DNA of 64,000 nucleotides from Candidatus Nitrosotenuis cloacae (lineage in GTDB: Archaea > Thermoproteota > Nitrososphaeria > Nitrososphaerales > Nitrosopumilaceae), in contig NZ_CP011097.1 of the NCBI RefSeq assembly GCF_000955905.1, positions 631,957 through 695,956 of the forward strand, in the 5' to 3' direction. The position numbers were made by a program, and so were the translations under genes. Of this stretch, positions 42,309 to 49,918 are shown in pieces. A model generated the notes under the pieces. The model was given only the letters and a program-made list of their open reading frames with translations. It made no database searches and was not told where the DNA came from. How positions within the stretch are numbered: the stretch's first letter is position 1; each line of letters starts with the position of its first letter.

Positions 42309-43208
42309 GTGGTAATGCAAGTTTTGAATGTAAAGAGTGGATGTACTAGATGTGGGGGCTCGATGCTAACTGATGGTTCTACAGGTGAACGATTCTGCCA
42401 AAAATGTGGCAATGTGATAGTTGAAAACATTGAAGACTCTCGCCCAGAGAGACGATTCATATCTGATGATTCCTCTGATAATAGCAGAACTGGCACTCCG
42501 AATTCACTTGCCATACATGATAGAGGGCTGGCAACAACAATTGGCAGCACGAGCAAAGATGCTACCGGAAAGTCGCTTTCATCTGTTATGCAGCAGGACA
42601 TGCGACGATTGCGAATTTGGGACAATCGTAGTCAGAGCGAAAAAACCGGCAGAAACCTAAGGGCTGCCTTTATGGAACTAGGCAAGCTAAAGGACAAACT
42701 CACCCTGTCTGATGCAGTGATTGAAAAGGCTGCTTTTATCTATAGAAAAGCTGTTGGCAAAGGACTGGTTCGTGGCAGGTCTATCCCACATGTTCTTGCT
42801 GCCTCTGCGTATGCCGCATGCCGTGATGCTGGAACTCCAAGAACACTGAGTGATTTCTCGGATGCACTAAACATCAAGAAAAAGGCAGTTTCTTGCAGCT
42901 ATAGGATGCTTCTCAAAGAGTTGGACATGAAAATGCCAGTAATGGACTCGTTGAACTGCATATCAAAGATAGCAAGCAAGCTAAACTTGGATGAAAAAGT
43001 AAAGCGACATGCACATGAGATCCTAAGTGATGCCAATGACAAAGAACTTACTGCGGGAAAGGGCCCAATGGGTCTTGCCGCCGCCGCATTATACATGGCG
43101 TGTGTAAAGTATGATCTCAAAATCTCCCAGCGAGAGATCTCTGTTGCATCAGGTGTTACTGAAGTGACAATACGAAATAGATCACGTGCACTACGGGAAT
43201 CTATATAA
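42309..43208 (+). CDS. tfb: Transcription initiation factor TFB
   Basis: A 299-residue archaeal TFIIB homologue that bridges TBP-DNA and RNA polymerase. The N-terminal zinc ribbon (CTRCGGSMLTDGSTGERFCQKCG) is followed by a B-reader/linker region (PERRF) and two cyclin-like repeats (about residues 100-190 and 200-295) with RKAVGKGLVRGRSIPHVLAASAYAACR and GPMGLAAAALYMAC. The last part has an HTH (ISQREISVASGVTEVTIRNR) that reads the BRE. GTG 42309 or ATG 42315 is the start. A paralogue lies at 49007. Confidence 0.95.
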   Translation: MVMQVLNVKSGCTRCGGSMLTDGSTGERFCQKCGNVIVENIEDSRPERRFISDDSSDNSRTGTPNSLAIHDRGLATTIGSTSKDATGKSLSSVMQQDMRRLRIWDNRSQSEKTGRNLRAAFMELGKLKDKLTLSDAVIEKAAFIYRKAVGKGLVRGRSIPHVLAASAYAACRDAGTPRTLSDFSDALNIKKKAVSCSYRMLLKELDMKMPVMDSLNCISKIASKLNLDEKVKRHAHEILSDANDKELTAGKGPMGLAAAALYMACVKYDLKISQREISVASGVTEVTIRNRSRALRESI

Positions 43209-44393: not shown

Positions 44394-44558
44394 TTATGCT
44401 TTTGAAAGTTTTTTGACGTGACTTGGATCATCTTTGACTGCATCCCTCATTTTCTTTTTTAGTTCACTGATCTTTGTTTCTGCACATCTTGAGGAACAAA
44501 AACTGCCGGATGGATTCGGTATTTCTTTACCGCAATTTGAACACTTTTTGATCGTCAA
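44394..44558 (-). CDS. Zinc-ribbon protein, third gene of the kamA unit
   Basis: A 54-residue protein from TTG 44558: KKCSNCGKEIP...GSFCSSRCAE, two CxxC/CxxxC knuckles 15 residues apart (treble-clef or YacG-like ribbon), followed by a charged helix (KISELKKKMRDAVKDD). It lies 13 nt downstream of the next Cys-rich gene and is probably on the kamA transcript. Confidence 0.5.
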   Translation of the reverse strand: MTIKKCSNCGKEIPNPSGSFCSSRCAETKISELKKKMRDAVKDDPSHVKKLSKA

Positions 44559-44571
44559 TCTGTACAACCAA

Positions 44572-44739
44572 TTATCTTAGAAAATCCAATGATTGATGTA
44601 GATCAAAACATCTGCACGGGTTTTTCTTTATGTTTGTGCACTTGGTGCAAATTACTTCAATTATCTGCTTGCATTTTGCACATGTGGAATATACACCGGT
44701 TTGCCCCTTGCACAGATTGCAAATGTCCCTCATGTTCAT
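44572..44739 (-). CDS. Double zinc-knuckle protein, second gene of the kamA unit
   Basis: A 55-residue protein (ATG 44739) with four evenly spaced Cys pairs: CNLC, CAKC, CTKC and CRC, followed by FDLHQSLDF. It could hold two zinc ions or one zinc plus an Fe-S centre. It starts 7 nt after the kamA stop. The association with a radical SAM enzyme is notable, but no function is known. Confidence 0.5.
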   Translation of the reverse strand: MNMRDICNLCKGQTGVYSTCAKCKQIIEVICTKCTNIKKNPCRCFDLHQSLDFLR

Positions 44740-44746
44740 TTTTTAT

Positions 44747-46249
44747 CTAAGAAAAGTTTCTTCCTCCAATTTTCCAATGGTATAATCCAATTCGGTCCTC
44801 AAAGAGACGTGTCTTTACGTTGTTTATTGAGGATAAAATTGGCGTTTTTCTTTTTCGTATTTTTTTTTCTGTTTTTGCTGCGGTGGACTGTTTGCTTTCC
44901 AGAATTTCTTCCAATTCGTTTTCAAAAAAGAATTTCTTACCAGAAAGCGGCTTTAGATCATCAATCCATATTGCTTTCTCATCAAATCGTGCCAGAAACG
45001 GTCTTTGTACCCATACTGGATTCCGTCCCTGTATGAATTGCAATAGAATTGCCTTTTTCTTTCCAAAATCCATCGTGCCAATGACGTGAATTTTTCCTGG
45101 ATTTGCAGACATTATTGGCCCACGTACTGTTCTTGCTAGGCCGCTGACTTTTTGATACGCGTCTTTGAATATTTGATGTGCTCGAATGAGTGGAATTCCA
45201 AAAAAGTCCTGCGCTCCAGTGTCTCTTGTGACAAACATGTAGTATGGAACGCATCCCAGACTGACTTGTCTTTGCCACATATCAGCCCAGATTTTTGGGT
45301 CATCATTTATGTTGGCAAGAACTGGAGACTGTGTTCGTATCTGAGCTCCTGTTTTTCGTATTCTATGAATGGCTGCAGCTACTGCTTGAGTTGAAAGTTC
45401 GACTGGATGGTTAAAGTGGGCCATGAATGCAAGATGTATTCCAGACTCGCCAACTCTTTTGAACAGATCTAGTAATTCATCTGCGTCATTATCTGTTAGG
45501 AATCGATATGGCCAGTATGATAGGGCTTTGGTTCCTATTCGAATTGTTTTGAGATTTTTAATTTTCGCATTGATAAGTGAATCAATGTATCTGGAAAGGA
45601 TTTTTGTTTTCATGATCATCGGATCCCCACCAGTAAACAAGACATCCGTGACCTCGTTGTGTTCTGAGAGGTACTGGATGAGCAGATCTGTTTCCTGCGT
45701 TGCAAACTGGAGTTCTTTTATTCCAATAAACTGAGGCCATCTAAAGCAAAATGTGCAGTAGGAATGACATGTTTGGCCTTGGCTTGGGAAGAAAAGGACC
45801 GTTTCGTCATATTTGTGCTGCATTCCGTACAGCTTTGTGCCGTCTTTGAGCTGCGGAATGTTGTATTCCTGACCTGCAGGATGAGGATTCAGACTCATAC
45901 GGATCTTGTTTGCAACCAATTGGATGGTGTCCTTATCGCCACTTTGTAATGCGGTGGACATTTTTCTGAAATTATCTGCAGAAAGCATTTTCTTTTGTGG
46001 GAATGTCAGAGTAAAGATCGGATCATTTGGAACATTATTCCAATTGATGAGTTGATCAATCACATAATTGTTAACTTTGAACGGAAATACACTTGCAACT
46101 ATCTCTATGTCTGATTGTCTTTCATTTGAGAGTGCTTTAATCTGCGAAATGTCCCTGAAATTATGCTGCATAAATGGCTGATACTGATATGAAGTGTCAA
46201 TTTGGATTTGCTTTGAACCCTTGGCGGGGATTTTCTCAATTACTGGCAT
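44747..46249 (-). CDS. KamA-family radical SAM aminomutase-like enzyme
   Basis: A 500-residue enzyme. The radical SAM cluster motif is CHSYCTFC (CxxxCxxC) near residue 160. It is preceded by the PLP/lysine-binding style N-terminus of lysine 2,3-aminomutases and followed by LFTGGDPMIM, IRIGTKALSYWPYRFL and a PGKIHVIG end of the TIM barrel. Lysine 2,3-aminomutases make beta-lysine, an osmolyte precursor, or modify EF-P, but the partner acetyltransferase AblB is absent and the C-terminus carries an extra basic tail (KKIRKRKTP). The substrate is therefore open. An operator-like palindrome lies 170 nt upstream. Confidence 0.8.
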   Translation of the reverse strand: MPVIEKIPAKGSKQIQIDTSYQYQPFMQHNFRDISQIKALSNERQSDIEIVASVFPFKVNNYVIDQLINWNNVPNDPIFTLTFPQKKMLSADNFRKMSTALQSGDKDTIQLVANKIRMSLNPHPAGQEYNIPQLKDGTKLYGMQHKYDETVLFFPSQGQTCHSYCTFCFRWPQFIGIKELQFATQETDLLIQYLSEHNEVTDVLFTGGDPMIMKTKILSRYIDSLINAKIKNLKTIRIGTKALSYWPYRFLTDNDADELLDLFKRVGESGIHLAFMAHFNHPVELSTQAVAAAIHRIRKTGAQIRTQSPVLANINDDPKIWADMWQRQVSLGCVPYYMFVTRDTGAQDFFGIPLIRAHQIFKDAYQKVSGLARTVRGPIMSANPGKIHVIGTMDFGKKKAILLQFIQGRNPVWVQRPFLARFDEKAIWIDDLKPLSGKKFFFENELEEILESKQSTAAKTEKKIRKRKTPILSSINNVKTRLFEDRIGLYHWKIGGRNFS

Positions 46250-46418
46250 GGTGAATTCTAAATCTATAGACTAAGCATCAAAACACTGTGTCTTGTATCA
46301 ATGAATCGTATGATTCAATGTGAAAAGACATCTAATGCAAATTTTTTACACTTCATATGTCTGCATGTCGTTTCTGTCATTGCATTCTATAATATGAATA
46401 CTTATTTAAGTACTACAG

Positions 46419-46436
46419 TACTCATCTTCGTGAGTA
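46419..46436. promoter_or_regulatory. TACTCA-N6-TGAGTA palindrome, copy 1
   Basis: TACTCA-TCTTCG-TGAGTA, an 18-bp inverted repeat between the kamA start and the 3' end of the wHTH gene. It is identical except for one spacer base to the copy at 47498. Probably an operator. Confidence 0.55.
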
Positions 46437-46462
46437 TTTTGGTTAAATGTTATCAAAAATAT

Positions 46463-46768
46463 TTAATCGTCTTGAAAAAATTTTATTCCTAGCTTTTTTG
46501 TTAATTCGTCTATTCTGTCGTATTCTTTGAGGAATTTTTTGCCTTTCTCAGTCAGAATTAGAGGATCTGTTACAATGAGATTTTTTTCCTCCAACTCTGT
46601 AAAATATGTAGTCAGCTTATCATATGAGGTTCCAACTAAAAACTGAATTCGTGTTGGTCGAACGGTTTCATTATCGATTAGTTCAATGCGCATCGCATTT
46701 AACACTGCATAATACAGCTCCATTCTACTCCTCTTTTCCTTTGATTGTGAGATTACTTTGCGGGCCAT
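46463..46768 (-). CDS. Small winged-helix DNA-binding protein
   Basis: A 101-residue winged-helix protein of the archaeal HTH_45 kind: RSRMELYYAVLNAM (helix 1), PTRIQFLVGTSYDKLTTYFTELEEKNLI (recognition helices) and a wing LILTEKGKKFLKEYDRI. It begins 1 nt after the stop of the membrane protein gene and lies between the two TACTCA palindromes, so it is the prime candidate to bind them. The cognate signal is unknown. Confidence 0.75.
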   Translation of the reverse strand: MARKVISQSKEKRSRMELYYAVLNAMRIELIDNETVRPTRIQFLVGTSYDKLTTYFTELEEKNLIVTDPLILTEKGKKFLKEYDRIDELTKKLGIKFFQDD

Positions 46769-46769
46769 A

Positions 46770-47480
46770 TCAAAACGATTTTTTTATAATGACTGGGTTT
46801 TTTGGTTTTCTTGCCAGTGCAATGATGATTATTCCGAGCCCTGCTATTTTTAGCACTCCAGATATGATGAGTGTCAGACTTGTGGGGTCTACTGTAAATA
46901 ATAGTCGTAGGTATTGAGACAAAAAGACAATGCCAAACCCAACTGGTAGTACAAAAAGATCAGATCTTGTTTGTAGTTCGGAGTTTGATCCTATTTTGAG
47001 AATAATGTATCCTAGTGCTACGAGGTTTAGAATTCTAAAGTATTCATTGTACTGGTGGAAATCTGGAAGAAACGAATTGCCAATACCTGTAACTACTAGT
47101 GATAAGCCTATGGGGATTAAAGAAATGAGGGCAGTCTTTATGACCATCTTGAATTTTTTTTCTGTATATTTTTTAAAATAATATACCAACCCAATGACGA
47201 TAAATCCATAGGAAACAAACGATAATCGTAACCAATGCAAAACATTGTAAATTTCACGATTATTTGTGACATCAATAGTCATGGAAAAAAAGAAATCACT
47301 AAACGCAACAAGTGCAAATCCGATCACCAACCCGCAAATATGGGCCGATGAGATCACCCTGTAAATTTTCAAGAAATACACCGAGATGACAGCACCTAGA
47401 ATTCCACTAATCATATACATGAAAAACAACATTGAGCTGTTTTGCTCAAATAGTAGTGCCTCCATGATTTGGTAAATCAT
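46770..47480 (-). CDS. Seven-helix membrane sensor-like protein
   Basis: A 236-residue integral membrane protein with about seven helices (MLFFMYMISGILGAVISVYFLKIY, HICGLVIGFALVAFSDFFF, and so on) and a short basic C-terminus. The topology resembles bacterial 7TM or MASE-type sensor domains without an output domain. It is co-transcribed with the winged-helix gene and shares its upstream palindrome with the divergent PEFG plastocyanin, suggesting a membrane signal passed to the regulator. The function is inferred from context. Confidence 0.65.
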   Translation of the reverse strand: MIYQIMEALLFEQNSSMLFFMYMISGILGAVISVYFLKIYRVISSAHICGLVIGFALVAFSDFFFSMTIDVTNNREIYNVLHWLRLSFVSYGFIVIGLVYYFKKYTEKKFKMVIKTALISLIPIGLSLVVTGIGNSFLPDFHQYNEYFRILNLVALGYIILKIGSNSELQTRSDLFVLPVGFGIVFLSQYLRLLFTVDPTSLTLIISGVLKIAGLGIIIIALARKPKNPVIIKKSF

Positions 47481-47497
47481 TCAAACATAATAAAATC

Positions 47498-47515
47498 TAC
47501 TCATCTTAGTGAGTA
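47498..47515. promoter_or_regulatory. TACTCA-N6-TGAGTA palindrome, copy 2
   Basis: TACTCA-TCTTAG-TGAGTA, in the 75-bp divergent promoter region between the membrane sensor/wHTH operon and the PEFG plastocyanin gene. Only one of 18 positions differs from the copy at 46419. Confidence 0.6.
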
Positions 47516-47555
47516 CCATAATACTCTTAAATAATCATGAATAATAGCTGCATCA

Positions 47556-48422
47556 ATGAAGACAATAGCAATAGGATCCATTTTGGCGATATTTGCTGTT
47601 ATGGCGACTGCTCCAGCGTTTGCAGATCATGCATCTGTTGAGGTCAGTATTCCTGAGGGTTCTTCTACAGTTGGCTGTGAAGAGACCAACGAGTGTTACA
47701 TCCCAGATGAAGTAACAATCGATGTAGGAAGTGAGGTAGTGTGGTCAAATGATGACACCGCTTCACACACTGTAACAAGCGGAGATCCACAAAACGGTCC
47801 AGACGGAAACTTTGATAGTAGTTTGTTCCTGTCGGGACAGACCTTTTCTCACATGTTCGAGGACGCCGGCGAATTTCCATACTTTTGCTTGGTGCATCCA
47901 TGGATGAGAGGTATTGTGATAGTCGAGGAAGCACATGCTGACGATCACAGTGACGATGTGGAAGAGATCCCTGATGAGCAAACCGACGCAGTGGTAATGT
48001 CACAAGACGGTTCAATTGTGATCAACATCAATTCTGATGTTCCAACAGAAGGTGCAGAGTCTGCATTAACCGTTGAATTCACAGATGCTGATGGAAATCC
48101 AATCGAGCACGTGAATTTTGAGGTCACTGTAACACAAGACGATCAAGAAGTCTTGGCAGAGACAGAACAACATGCACATAGTGGGATTACAGAATTCACA
48201 ACATCTGCTCTAGGATCAGACAGTCCACTAGATGTCCAAGTCACAATTCTAGGAATAGGATTGCCAGACGATGATCCAGCAACATGGACAGGTCCAATAG
48301 GGGAAACAATATCTGCTCAAGTAGTTCCAGAGTTTGGCCCACTTGCAATGATTATTTTGGCTGCAGCCATTGTAAGCATTGTTGTTGTGACAACACGATC
48401 TAAGGTAATGCCAAAACTTTAG
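47556..48422 (+). CDS. Plastocyanin with PEFG-CTERM sorting signal
   Basis: A 288-residue exported copper protein. It has a signal peptide (IAIGSILAIFAVMATAPAFA), a cupredoxin domain (about residues 27-125) with His in SHTVTSG and Cys/His/Met in YFCLVHPWM, an Asp/Glu-rich linker, and a second Ig-like beta domain (about 150-255). The C-terminal VPEFGP motif, hydrophobic helix and basic end are the thaumarchaeal PEFG-CTERM signal, processed by an archaeosortase-like enzyme for surface attachment. It carries electrons or binds copper at the cell surface. Confidence 0.92.
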   Translation: MKTIAIGSILAIFAVMATAPAFADHASVEVSIPEGSSTVGCEETNECYIPDEVTIDVGSEVVWSNDDTASHTVTSGDPQNGPDGNFDSSLFLSGQTFSHMFEDAGEFPYFCLVHPWMRGIVIVEEAHADDHSDDVEEIPDEQTDAVVMSQDGSIVININSDVPTEGAESALTVEFTDADGNPIEHVNFEVTVTQDDQEVLAETEQHAHSGITEFTTSALGSDSPLDVQVTILGIGLPDDDPATWTGPIGETISAQVVPEFGPLAMIILAAAIVSIVVVTTRSKVMPKL

Positions 48423-49006: not shown

Positions 49007-49918
49007 ATGGTAGTCCACACATTTAGCTCAAACGATACATGTCGGCGCTGCAAAGGCCTGATGGTAACTGATGCCGTTACTGGCGAGCGATTTTGTCGCA
49101 ACTGCGGATTTGTTGTAGATGAGCAAATAGCGGAATTGGGTCCTGAGCGCAACGTATCAAAGGACAGCGACAGAGACGATAAAAGCCGGGTTGGCATTCC
49201 AACATCTTTGGCAATTCATGATATGGGACTAGCCACTGTAATTGGTGCTGCAAACAAGGACGCCACTGGCAAGCCACTTTCTGCGCAGGCAAAACATGAA
49301 ATGAAGCGTCTTAGAACTTGGGATAATCGCAGCCAGATGAGTGAGCAGATGGACAGAAACCTTCGGTACGCATTCATCCAGCTGGACAAGCTAAAAGACA
49401 AACTCACCTTATCTGATGCCGTAATTGAAAAAGCGGCCTACATTTATCGCAAAGCACTATCAAAGAGTTTGGTTCGGGGAAGATCAATTGAAGGAGTGCT
49501 AGCAGCTGCAGTATATGCAGCATGCAGAGATGTTGAAACACCACGAACTCTTGGCGATGTTGCAACTGCAATTAACATCAAACGAAAGGATCTCTCAAAG
49601 AACTATAGATTATTGGTAAACGAGCTGGAAATGAAGATGCCAGTAGTTAGCTCAATCACATGCATGTCAAAGATTGCAAGCAAGGTTGGTCTGAGTGAGA
49701 AGGTAAAGCGACACGCCCTTGGCATACTAAAGGAGGCAAATGACTCTAGAATCACTGCTGGAAAGGACCCAATGGGGATGGCAGCGTCTGCTTTGTACAT
49801 TTCATGTGTAAAGATGGATGTTGACATATCCCAAAAAGACATTGCAATGGCAGCCGGCGTAACCGAAGTGACAATTCGAAATCGCTACAAGGATCTCAAA
49901 AAGTCTCTCCACATCTAA
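49007..49918 (+). CDS. tfb: Transcription initiation factor TFB (second copy)
   Basis: A 303-residue TFB with a zinc ribbon (CRRCKGLMVTDAVTGERFCRNCG), PERNV linker and two cyclin repeats (VRGRSIEGVLAAAVYAACR; DPMGMAASALYISC), ending in ISQKDIAMAAGVTEVTIRNRYKDL. It is clearly paralogous to the 42309 protein across its length, including the unusual SLAIHD-x-GLAT linker. ATG 49007 is 16 nt after the nuclease-like stop. Multiple TFBs in thaumarchaea are thought to give promoter-specific regulation. Confidence 0.95.
   Translation: MVVHTFSSNDTCRRCKGLMVTDAVTGERFCRNCGFVVDEQIAELGPERNVSKDSDRDDKSRVGIPTSLAIHDMGLATVIGAANKDATGKPLSAQAKHEMKRLRTWDNRSQMSEQMDRNLRYAFIQLDKLKDKLTLSDAVIEKAAYIYRKALSKSLVRGRSIEGVLAAAVYAACRDVETPRTLGDVATAINIKRKDLSKNYRLLVNELEMKMPVVSSITCMSKIASKVGLSEKVKRHALGILKEANDSRITAGKDPMGMAASALYISCVKMDVDISQKDIAMAAGVTEVTIRNRYKDLKKSLHI

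Follow-up and report, generated by a model that had tools for sequence, protein, structure and literature searches.

A rare palindrome at the promoters around a membrane-protein/winged-helix gene pair of Candidatus Nitrosotenuis cloacae, a candidate operator of the winged-helix protein

The window considered here is a stretch of 64,000 nucleotides of the Candidatus Nitrosotenuis cloacae genome (NZ_CP011097.1, positions 631,957 to 695,956). Within it, two adjacent genes encoding a predicted membrane protein, referred to below as the sensor, and a small winged-helix (wHTH) protein lie between a divergently transcribed plastocyanin gene and a run of three genes that begins with kamA and ends with two genes for zinc-ribbon-like proteins. 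An 18-bp palindrome, or dyad, is found on either side of the sensor/wHTH pair. The features are listed in Table 1, together with a wHTH paralogue encoded elsewhere in the genome. Genes for TFB-like transcription factors flank the region, at 42309-43208 and 49007-49918.

Table 1. Genes and promoter elements of the locus, in window coordinates, and the wHTH paralogue, in genome coordinates (C1)
Feature	Position	Strand	Remarks
57-aa treble-clef/zinc-ribbon-like protein	44394..44567	-	last gene of the kamA run
55-aa zinc-ribbon-like protein	44572..44739	-	follows kamA; G001 orthologue directly behind the dyad without kamA
KamA-family radical SAM protein	44747..46249	-	
TATA-like box TTAAATAA of the kamA operon	46402..46409	-	9 nt after dyad 2; implied 5' leader of ~120 nt
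Dyad 2, TACTCATCTTCGTGAGTA (+ strand)	46419..46436	.	~27 bp past the wHTH stop codon and ahead of the TATA-like box of kamA
101-aa winged-helix protein, Pfam HTH_45	46463..46768	-	likely dyad-binding regulator (predicted)
Predicted multi-helix membrane protein, wHTH partner	46770..47465	-	ORF extends to 47480; start probably at 47465
TATA-like box TTTTATTA of the sensor operon	47488..47495	-	2 nt past dyad 1 and ~26 nt ahead of 47465, the likely start
Dyad 1, TACTCATCTTAGTGAGTA	47498..47515	.	in the promoter region common to plastocyanin (+) and the sensor/wHTH pair (-)
TATA-like box TTAAATAA of the plastocyanin gene	47527..47534	+	11 nt past dyad 1 and ~26 nt ahead of the ATG, a leaderless spacing
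PEFG-CTERM plastocyanin	47556..48422	+	
wHTH paralogue (HTH_45)	C1:355923-356249		~320 kb away; overlapping MEDS-domain protein follows, the pair spanning C1:355923-356849 (L094 5924-6849)

The plastocyanin passes the cut-offs of both the copper-bind family (PF00127; 29.1 against 21.2) and the PEFG-CTERM family (TIGR04296; 31.9 against 25). The KamA-family protein scores 136.9 bits with TIGR00238, below the subfamily cut-off of 199.2, its homology nevertheless being clear. A second palindrome, TGAATCGTATGATTCA, is located at 46301-46316 in the presumed 5' leader of kamA. Translation of the sensor probably starts at 47465 and not at 47480, as codon 6 aligns with the start of its orthologue and lies 26-27 nt from the TATA-like box directly after the dyad. 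With the start corrected in this way, the sensor mRNA would be leaderless.

The dyad had been noticed by eye as a sequence, TACTCATCTT(C/A)GTGAGTA, and it is indeed present twice, with 17 of 18 bases identical and one base differing. Its rarity was assessed in the 1,620,156-bp single-contig genome under a first-order Markov model. The two window sites, 1.1 kb apart, are the only occurrences of TACTCA-N6-TGAGTA in the genome (0.074 expected), which excludes the possibility that the motif is common at random places; for TACTCATCTTNGTGAGTA, two copies were observed where 0.0002 were expected genome-wide. Within the window, allowing up to three mismatches still returned only the same two 18-mers, against an average of 0.09 in shuffled sequences. 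A larger regulon of relaxed sites was ruled out: with two mismatches allowed, the genome contains 35 sites compared with 55 for the reversed control, and the three sites with one mismatch each lie inside a gene. The signal is thus strictly local and strict in sequence.

A shorter core, ACTC-N3-AAGATGAGT, occurs at three sites in the genome (0.067 expected), namely dyad 1, dyad 2 and a position ahead of the wHTH paralogue gene, C1:355830; this core was defined after the paralogue site had been seen, the paralogue promoter having been checked beforehand for ACTC-N8-GAGT. Outside genes, ACTC-N8-GAGT is likewise confined to the window dyads and the paralogue promoter, dyad 2 being scored as coding in that scan on account of a spurious 63-aa ORF at 46301-46492. 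The putative regulon appears to be slightly larger than originally proposed, as the promoter of the second wHTH gene, ~320 kb away, also carries the core. The asymmetric centre of the dyad, TCTTnG, is conserved as well, a feature that a plain model of two half-sites does not explain.

The wHTH protein belongs to Pfam family HTH_45 (PF14947), which it matches with 37.2 bits against a cut-off of 25.5, the paralogue scoring 45.5. A structure model of the window protein (pLDDT 74) is predicted to contain a wing and a long C-terminal helix, and its structural matches include Sso10a (PDB 1r7j; TM 0.62/0.69, E 0.05). A sequence search of the PDB with the wHTH protein gave no significant match. Exactly two close members of this wHTH subfamily are encoded in the genome (E 3e-42 and 6e-42, the next match having 1e-9). 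The partner of the second is a MEDS-domain sensor and not a membrane protein, and its promoter carries ACTCGTCAAGATGAGT with the same dyad core.

Less can be said of the membrane protein from its structure, since the model obtained was poor (pLDDT 52) and unfit for a fold search, and its family matches are weak. Domain-family searches detected no protease, kinase or other catalytic domain in it, and no match to a histidine kinase or receiver domain reached the cut-off in either the membrane protein or the wHTH protein. The pair is not a two-component system. Nor is it, in the strict sense, a one-component system, the term originally applied to it, as input and DNA binding would reside on separate polypeptides encoded by two adjacent genes. 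A fusion of input domain and wHTH was found only in G013, where the wHTH protein beside the sensor includes a MEDS domain (65 bits against a cut-off of 29.8). The sensor and the MEDS-wHTH fusion lie side by side in that genome (C1:217886-219416, L161/L091), an apparent intermediate between the two types of partner.

A profile search identified relatives of the sensor in 27 of 400 genomes of the order, and none in viral contigs. The wHTH gene directly adjoins the sensor gene at 25 sensor loci, the remaining loci being partial or cut by contig ends; the gene pair for the putative 7TM protein and the wHTH is a conserved module. Within the family the sensor gene is present in four of 250 genomes: the window genome, the Nitrosarchaeum MAGs WB-IL-22 and LakeFargette/Lac Pavin (G081 and G084), and, as a distant relative, G013.

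TACTCA-N6-TGAGTA itself is found in six of the 250 family genomes, and in four of these it has the same centre, TCTTnG: the window genome, a second genome of the same genus (G001) and the two Nitrosarchaeum MAGs. Three of these four have the sensor/wHTH pair. In both Nitrosarchaeum genomes the same 18-mer (17 of 18 bases or better) is located 22 bp after the wHTH stop codon. As the wHTH proteins of the window and Nitrosarchaeum are only 64-66% identical, and the sensors 49%, conservation to this degree indicates that the 18-mer is under constraint. Relative to the wHTH gene the TCTTnG centre can point either way, as would suit a site in double-stranded DNA and not an RNA hairpin. The Nitrosarchaeum dyads (L048 640-690 and L090 6412-6462) have arms extended to 13-14 bp, with compensating outer bases. 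No dyad precedes the sensor gene in G084, the only one of the two genomes in which that region is present.

In G001, the dyad lies between a plastocyanin gene and a zinc-ribbon gene, at the promoters of both. Neither a sensor nor a close wHTH relative was detected in this genome, which is 93% complete in 200 contigs, so that their absence may be an assembly gap. A scan of named GTDB genomes with the 17-base motif yielded 16 matches, three of which, all in Nitrososphaerota (the two Nitrosarchaeum MAGs and G001), are meaningful; the others are scattered over unrelated taxa, as by chance. A single match to the motif was found in viral contigs, no more than expected by chance. Four genomes of other genera of the order (G037, G043, G051 and G053) contain TACTCA-N6-TGAGTA with a different centre and away from wHTH operons, within predicted ORFs in the case of G037 and G053, and these sites were set aside.

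Related dyads are found at more distant sensor operons. A search for inverted repeats with no preset motif revealed a recurrent CTCCC-N5-GGGAG some 75-93 bp upstream of the sensor start in f8 genomes. This element corresponds to ACTC-N9-GAG(T/C), and a TATA-like box comes after it at a short, constant distance; the f8 dyads mostly have GAGC instead of GAGT, with a spacer of 9. An example from G038 reads ACTCTCTATAGGGGAGT-ATTTC-TTAAATAC, the dyad being followed by a TATA-like box. The 300 bp preceding the sensor operon were inspected in 22 cases from other genomes: ACTC-N8/9-GAGT is present in exact form at three (0.1 expected) and with up to one mismatch at 15 (3.2 expected), counts that do not represent independent events since the operons come partly from related genomes, those of f8 among them. 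The wHTH gene of G043, which is partnered by a MEDS protein, has ACTCCCCAAGGGGAG directly before its TATA box. No such dyad was found at wHTH or sensor loci of G021, G010, G034, G303, G352 and G312.

Across 23 genomes, ACTCYC-N5-GRGAGYA has 30 sites, compared with five for the reversed control; sensor operons account for 13 of these sites and various other genes for the rest. Further dyads of this form precede other genes in Nitrososphaerota (L198 and L210 in G406 and G410; L191, L206, L213 and L214 in G342 and G392). Some of them occupy matching positions in related genomes, and they are candidates for a wider regulon in that lineage.

The window plastocyanin is a recent paralogue of the protein encoded at C1:1475579-1476436, with which it shares 81% identity and forms a sister pair (87/89 support). 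This parental gene has a dyad-free promoter, GAATAAGGATTTTTATTCG, which its orthologues within the genus share. A separate duplication probably gave rise to the dyad-bearing plastocyanin of G001: placing the two dyad-bearing proteins in one old clade was weakly rejected (AU p 0.022), the G001 copy being truncated and long-branched. Orthologues of kamA are present in nine other genomes, none of which contains the exact dyad; the kamA promoters inspected, those of G004, G009, G011 and G013, have no dyad, and kamA was not found in G001, G081 or G084. The palindrome is therefore not a general property of kamA or of plastocyanin genes, whose orthologues lack it. Judged from these comparisons, the regulon looks young and lineage-specific. 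In G013 and G004 (L087 6190-11204 and L086), the kamA and zinc-ribbon genes are followed by genes for a DUF432 protein, an MscS-type channel and glutamine synthetase, neighbours which hint at a connection to osmotic balance or to osmolytes of the beta-amino-acid type.

Taken as a whole, these observations make it likely that the dyad is an operator of the HTH_45 wHTH subfamily, and that the window wHTH protein acts on its own operon and has brought a duplicated plastocyanin gene and the KamA-family operon under its control. In support of the operator interpretation, the palindrome is rare, is placed at promoters and is tied to the wHTH family, through the paralogue promoter, the distant operons and the Nitrosarchaeum 18-mer; the G001 site, with no detectable wHTH or sensor gene, the position of the Nitrosarchaeum site 3' of the wHTH gene and the wHTH or sensor loci that lack a dyad do not fit so readily. 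As the dyad goes with the wHTH gene whatever the sensor partner, it is the wHTH protein that is pointed to as the binder. In keeping with autoregulation, a conserved dyad is present in its own promoter, in the paralogue promoter and at sensor operons of other families, with some exceptions.

It is proposed that the wHTH protein, probably as a dimer, binds the half-sites ACTC...GAGT. At dyad 1 it would autoregulate the sensor/wHTH operon and control the divergent plastocyanin gene, and at dyad 2 it would control the kamA/zinc-ribbon run. With the same operator at the paralogue, the window protein and its MEDS-partnered counterpart might act on each other's genes. Signal input probably comes through the membrane protein, its place being taken in other members by a MEDS protein or domain; signalling from the membrane protein to the wHTH protein is assumed, given that the two are constantly partnered in this branch.

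The position of the dyad relative to the TATA box may bear on the direction of control. At most of the wHTH-operon promoters inspected, the gap between GAGT and the TATA box is 0-5 nt (window sensor 3, paralogue 4, G043 0, G038 5, f8 ~5), so that a bound protein would cover the BRE, and autorepression is tentatively considered likely. At three other promoters the gap is 10-12 nt (plastocyanin 12, kamA 10, G001 zinc-ribbon gene 10), which would leave the BRE free and might therefore fit activation. The G001 plastocyanin promoter, with a gap of 4 nt, is an exception to this rule.

Other explanations for the dyad can be envisaged. It could be the operator of another regulator acting in trans, the wHTH genes being merely among the targets, and such an arrangement would account for G001, which keeps the dyad at its plastocyanin and zinc-ribbon promoters with the sensor and a close wHTH undetected. 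That genome is fragmented and incomplete, however, and a regulator in trans would not be expected to have core sites only at or beside the two wHTH genes of the window genome, or dyads that recur at wHTH operons of other families and with a different sensor partner; this explanation is considered unlikely. Much less probable is the idea that the 18-mers are recombination or insertion sites, direct repeats generated when the sensor/wHTH pair inserted between the plastocyanin and kamA/zinc-ribbon genes. Near-identical direct repeats do flank the pair, which is patchily distributed, and the plastocyanin-dyad-zinc ribbon order of G001 resembles an 'empty' arrangement. Yet the asymmetric centre in G001, set against the genes around it, points the opposite way from that of a simple deletion product, and no homology other than the TATA box flanks the repeats. 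The Nitrosarchaeum loci have a single copy, the same core precedes the unlinked wHTH paralogue, and the ORFs nearby, as far as they were looked over, included no evident integrase gene.

The location of both Nitrosarchaeum sites just past the wHTH stop codon, with their long, compensated arms, could be taken to mean that the palindrome acts at the RNA level, the wHTH mRNA ending in a hairpin or terminator. Against this, the second window copy and the paralogue copy are upstream of genes, the centre is found in both orientations, and the copies in the window genome have no arms beyond ~6 bp, with the arm bases themselves conserved; a role in RNA is thus very improbable. Finally, a short motif present in two copies and picked out by eye might be a chance resemblance with no function, but 0.07 exact dyads were expected where two were seen close together, the site is conserved across genera and a third core copy stands at the paralogue promoter, so that coincidence is the least probable explanation of all.

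Beyond the window, the balance tips slightly in favour of an unnamed class of regulators, in which one wHTH subfamily with a conserved ACTC-N8/9-GAGT operator would be served by interchangeable sensors (a putative 7TM membrane protein, or MEDS either as a protein of its own or as a domain of the wHTH protein). Young gene duplicates, the window plastocyanin among them, would come under control by acquiring the operator. Ammonia-oxidizing archaea have many small winged-helix proteins, few of which were found to have assigned operators in the literature searched. The present case offers a specific candidate protein-operator pair that can be recognized throughout the order and whose candidate targets include a membrane sensor and a surface copper protein. 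Such a pair would be of use in assigning a regulon, and in time a signal, to one class of regulators in archaea, and it illustrates the exchange of sensor partners around a constant DNA site. No description of the sensor/wHTH pair or of the dyad was found in the open-licence literature searched.

Promoter motifs associated with copper limitation have been described in Nitrososphaera viennensis, namely TTCSGSMTTTGWACYANT and RATTTAAABATAGATTTAAATAATAAS (PMC7785015). Like these, the window dyad is found in promoters of an ammonia-oxidizing archaeon, upstream of a copper-linked gene; unlike them, it has the form ACTC-N8-GAGT, which resembles neither sequence. As the published motifs differ in this way, there is no evidence that the dyad is the copper motif.

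A second point of comparison is Sso10a, an archaeal PF14947 protein described as an architectural chromatin protein (PMC4941522). The window wHTH protein is similar to it in passing the HTH_45 cut-off and in its predicted fold, but it misses the cut-off of the Sso10a chromatin family (NCBIfam NF053610, Sso10a_fam; 33.2 bits against 60) and is associated with a sensor partner and with a site that is both rare and conserved. The rarity and conservation of the dyad would speak against a mode of DNA binding that is architectural and for the most part independent of sequence.

The pair resembles the regulators with a MEDS domain, the sensory domain of DcmR, in that the same wHTH subfamily has members paired with or fused to MEDS; it departs from them in having a membrane protein in the MEDS place. 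Systems in which a membrane sensor works with a soluble DNA-binding partner are exemplified by BlaR1/BlaI. The window membrane protein is unrelated to BlaR1/BlaI in sequence and has no detected catalytic domain, but the organization is shared, with adjacent genes for a membrane protein and a small winged-helix regulator in an operon that, as proposed here, would be under its own control.
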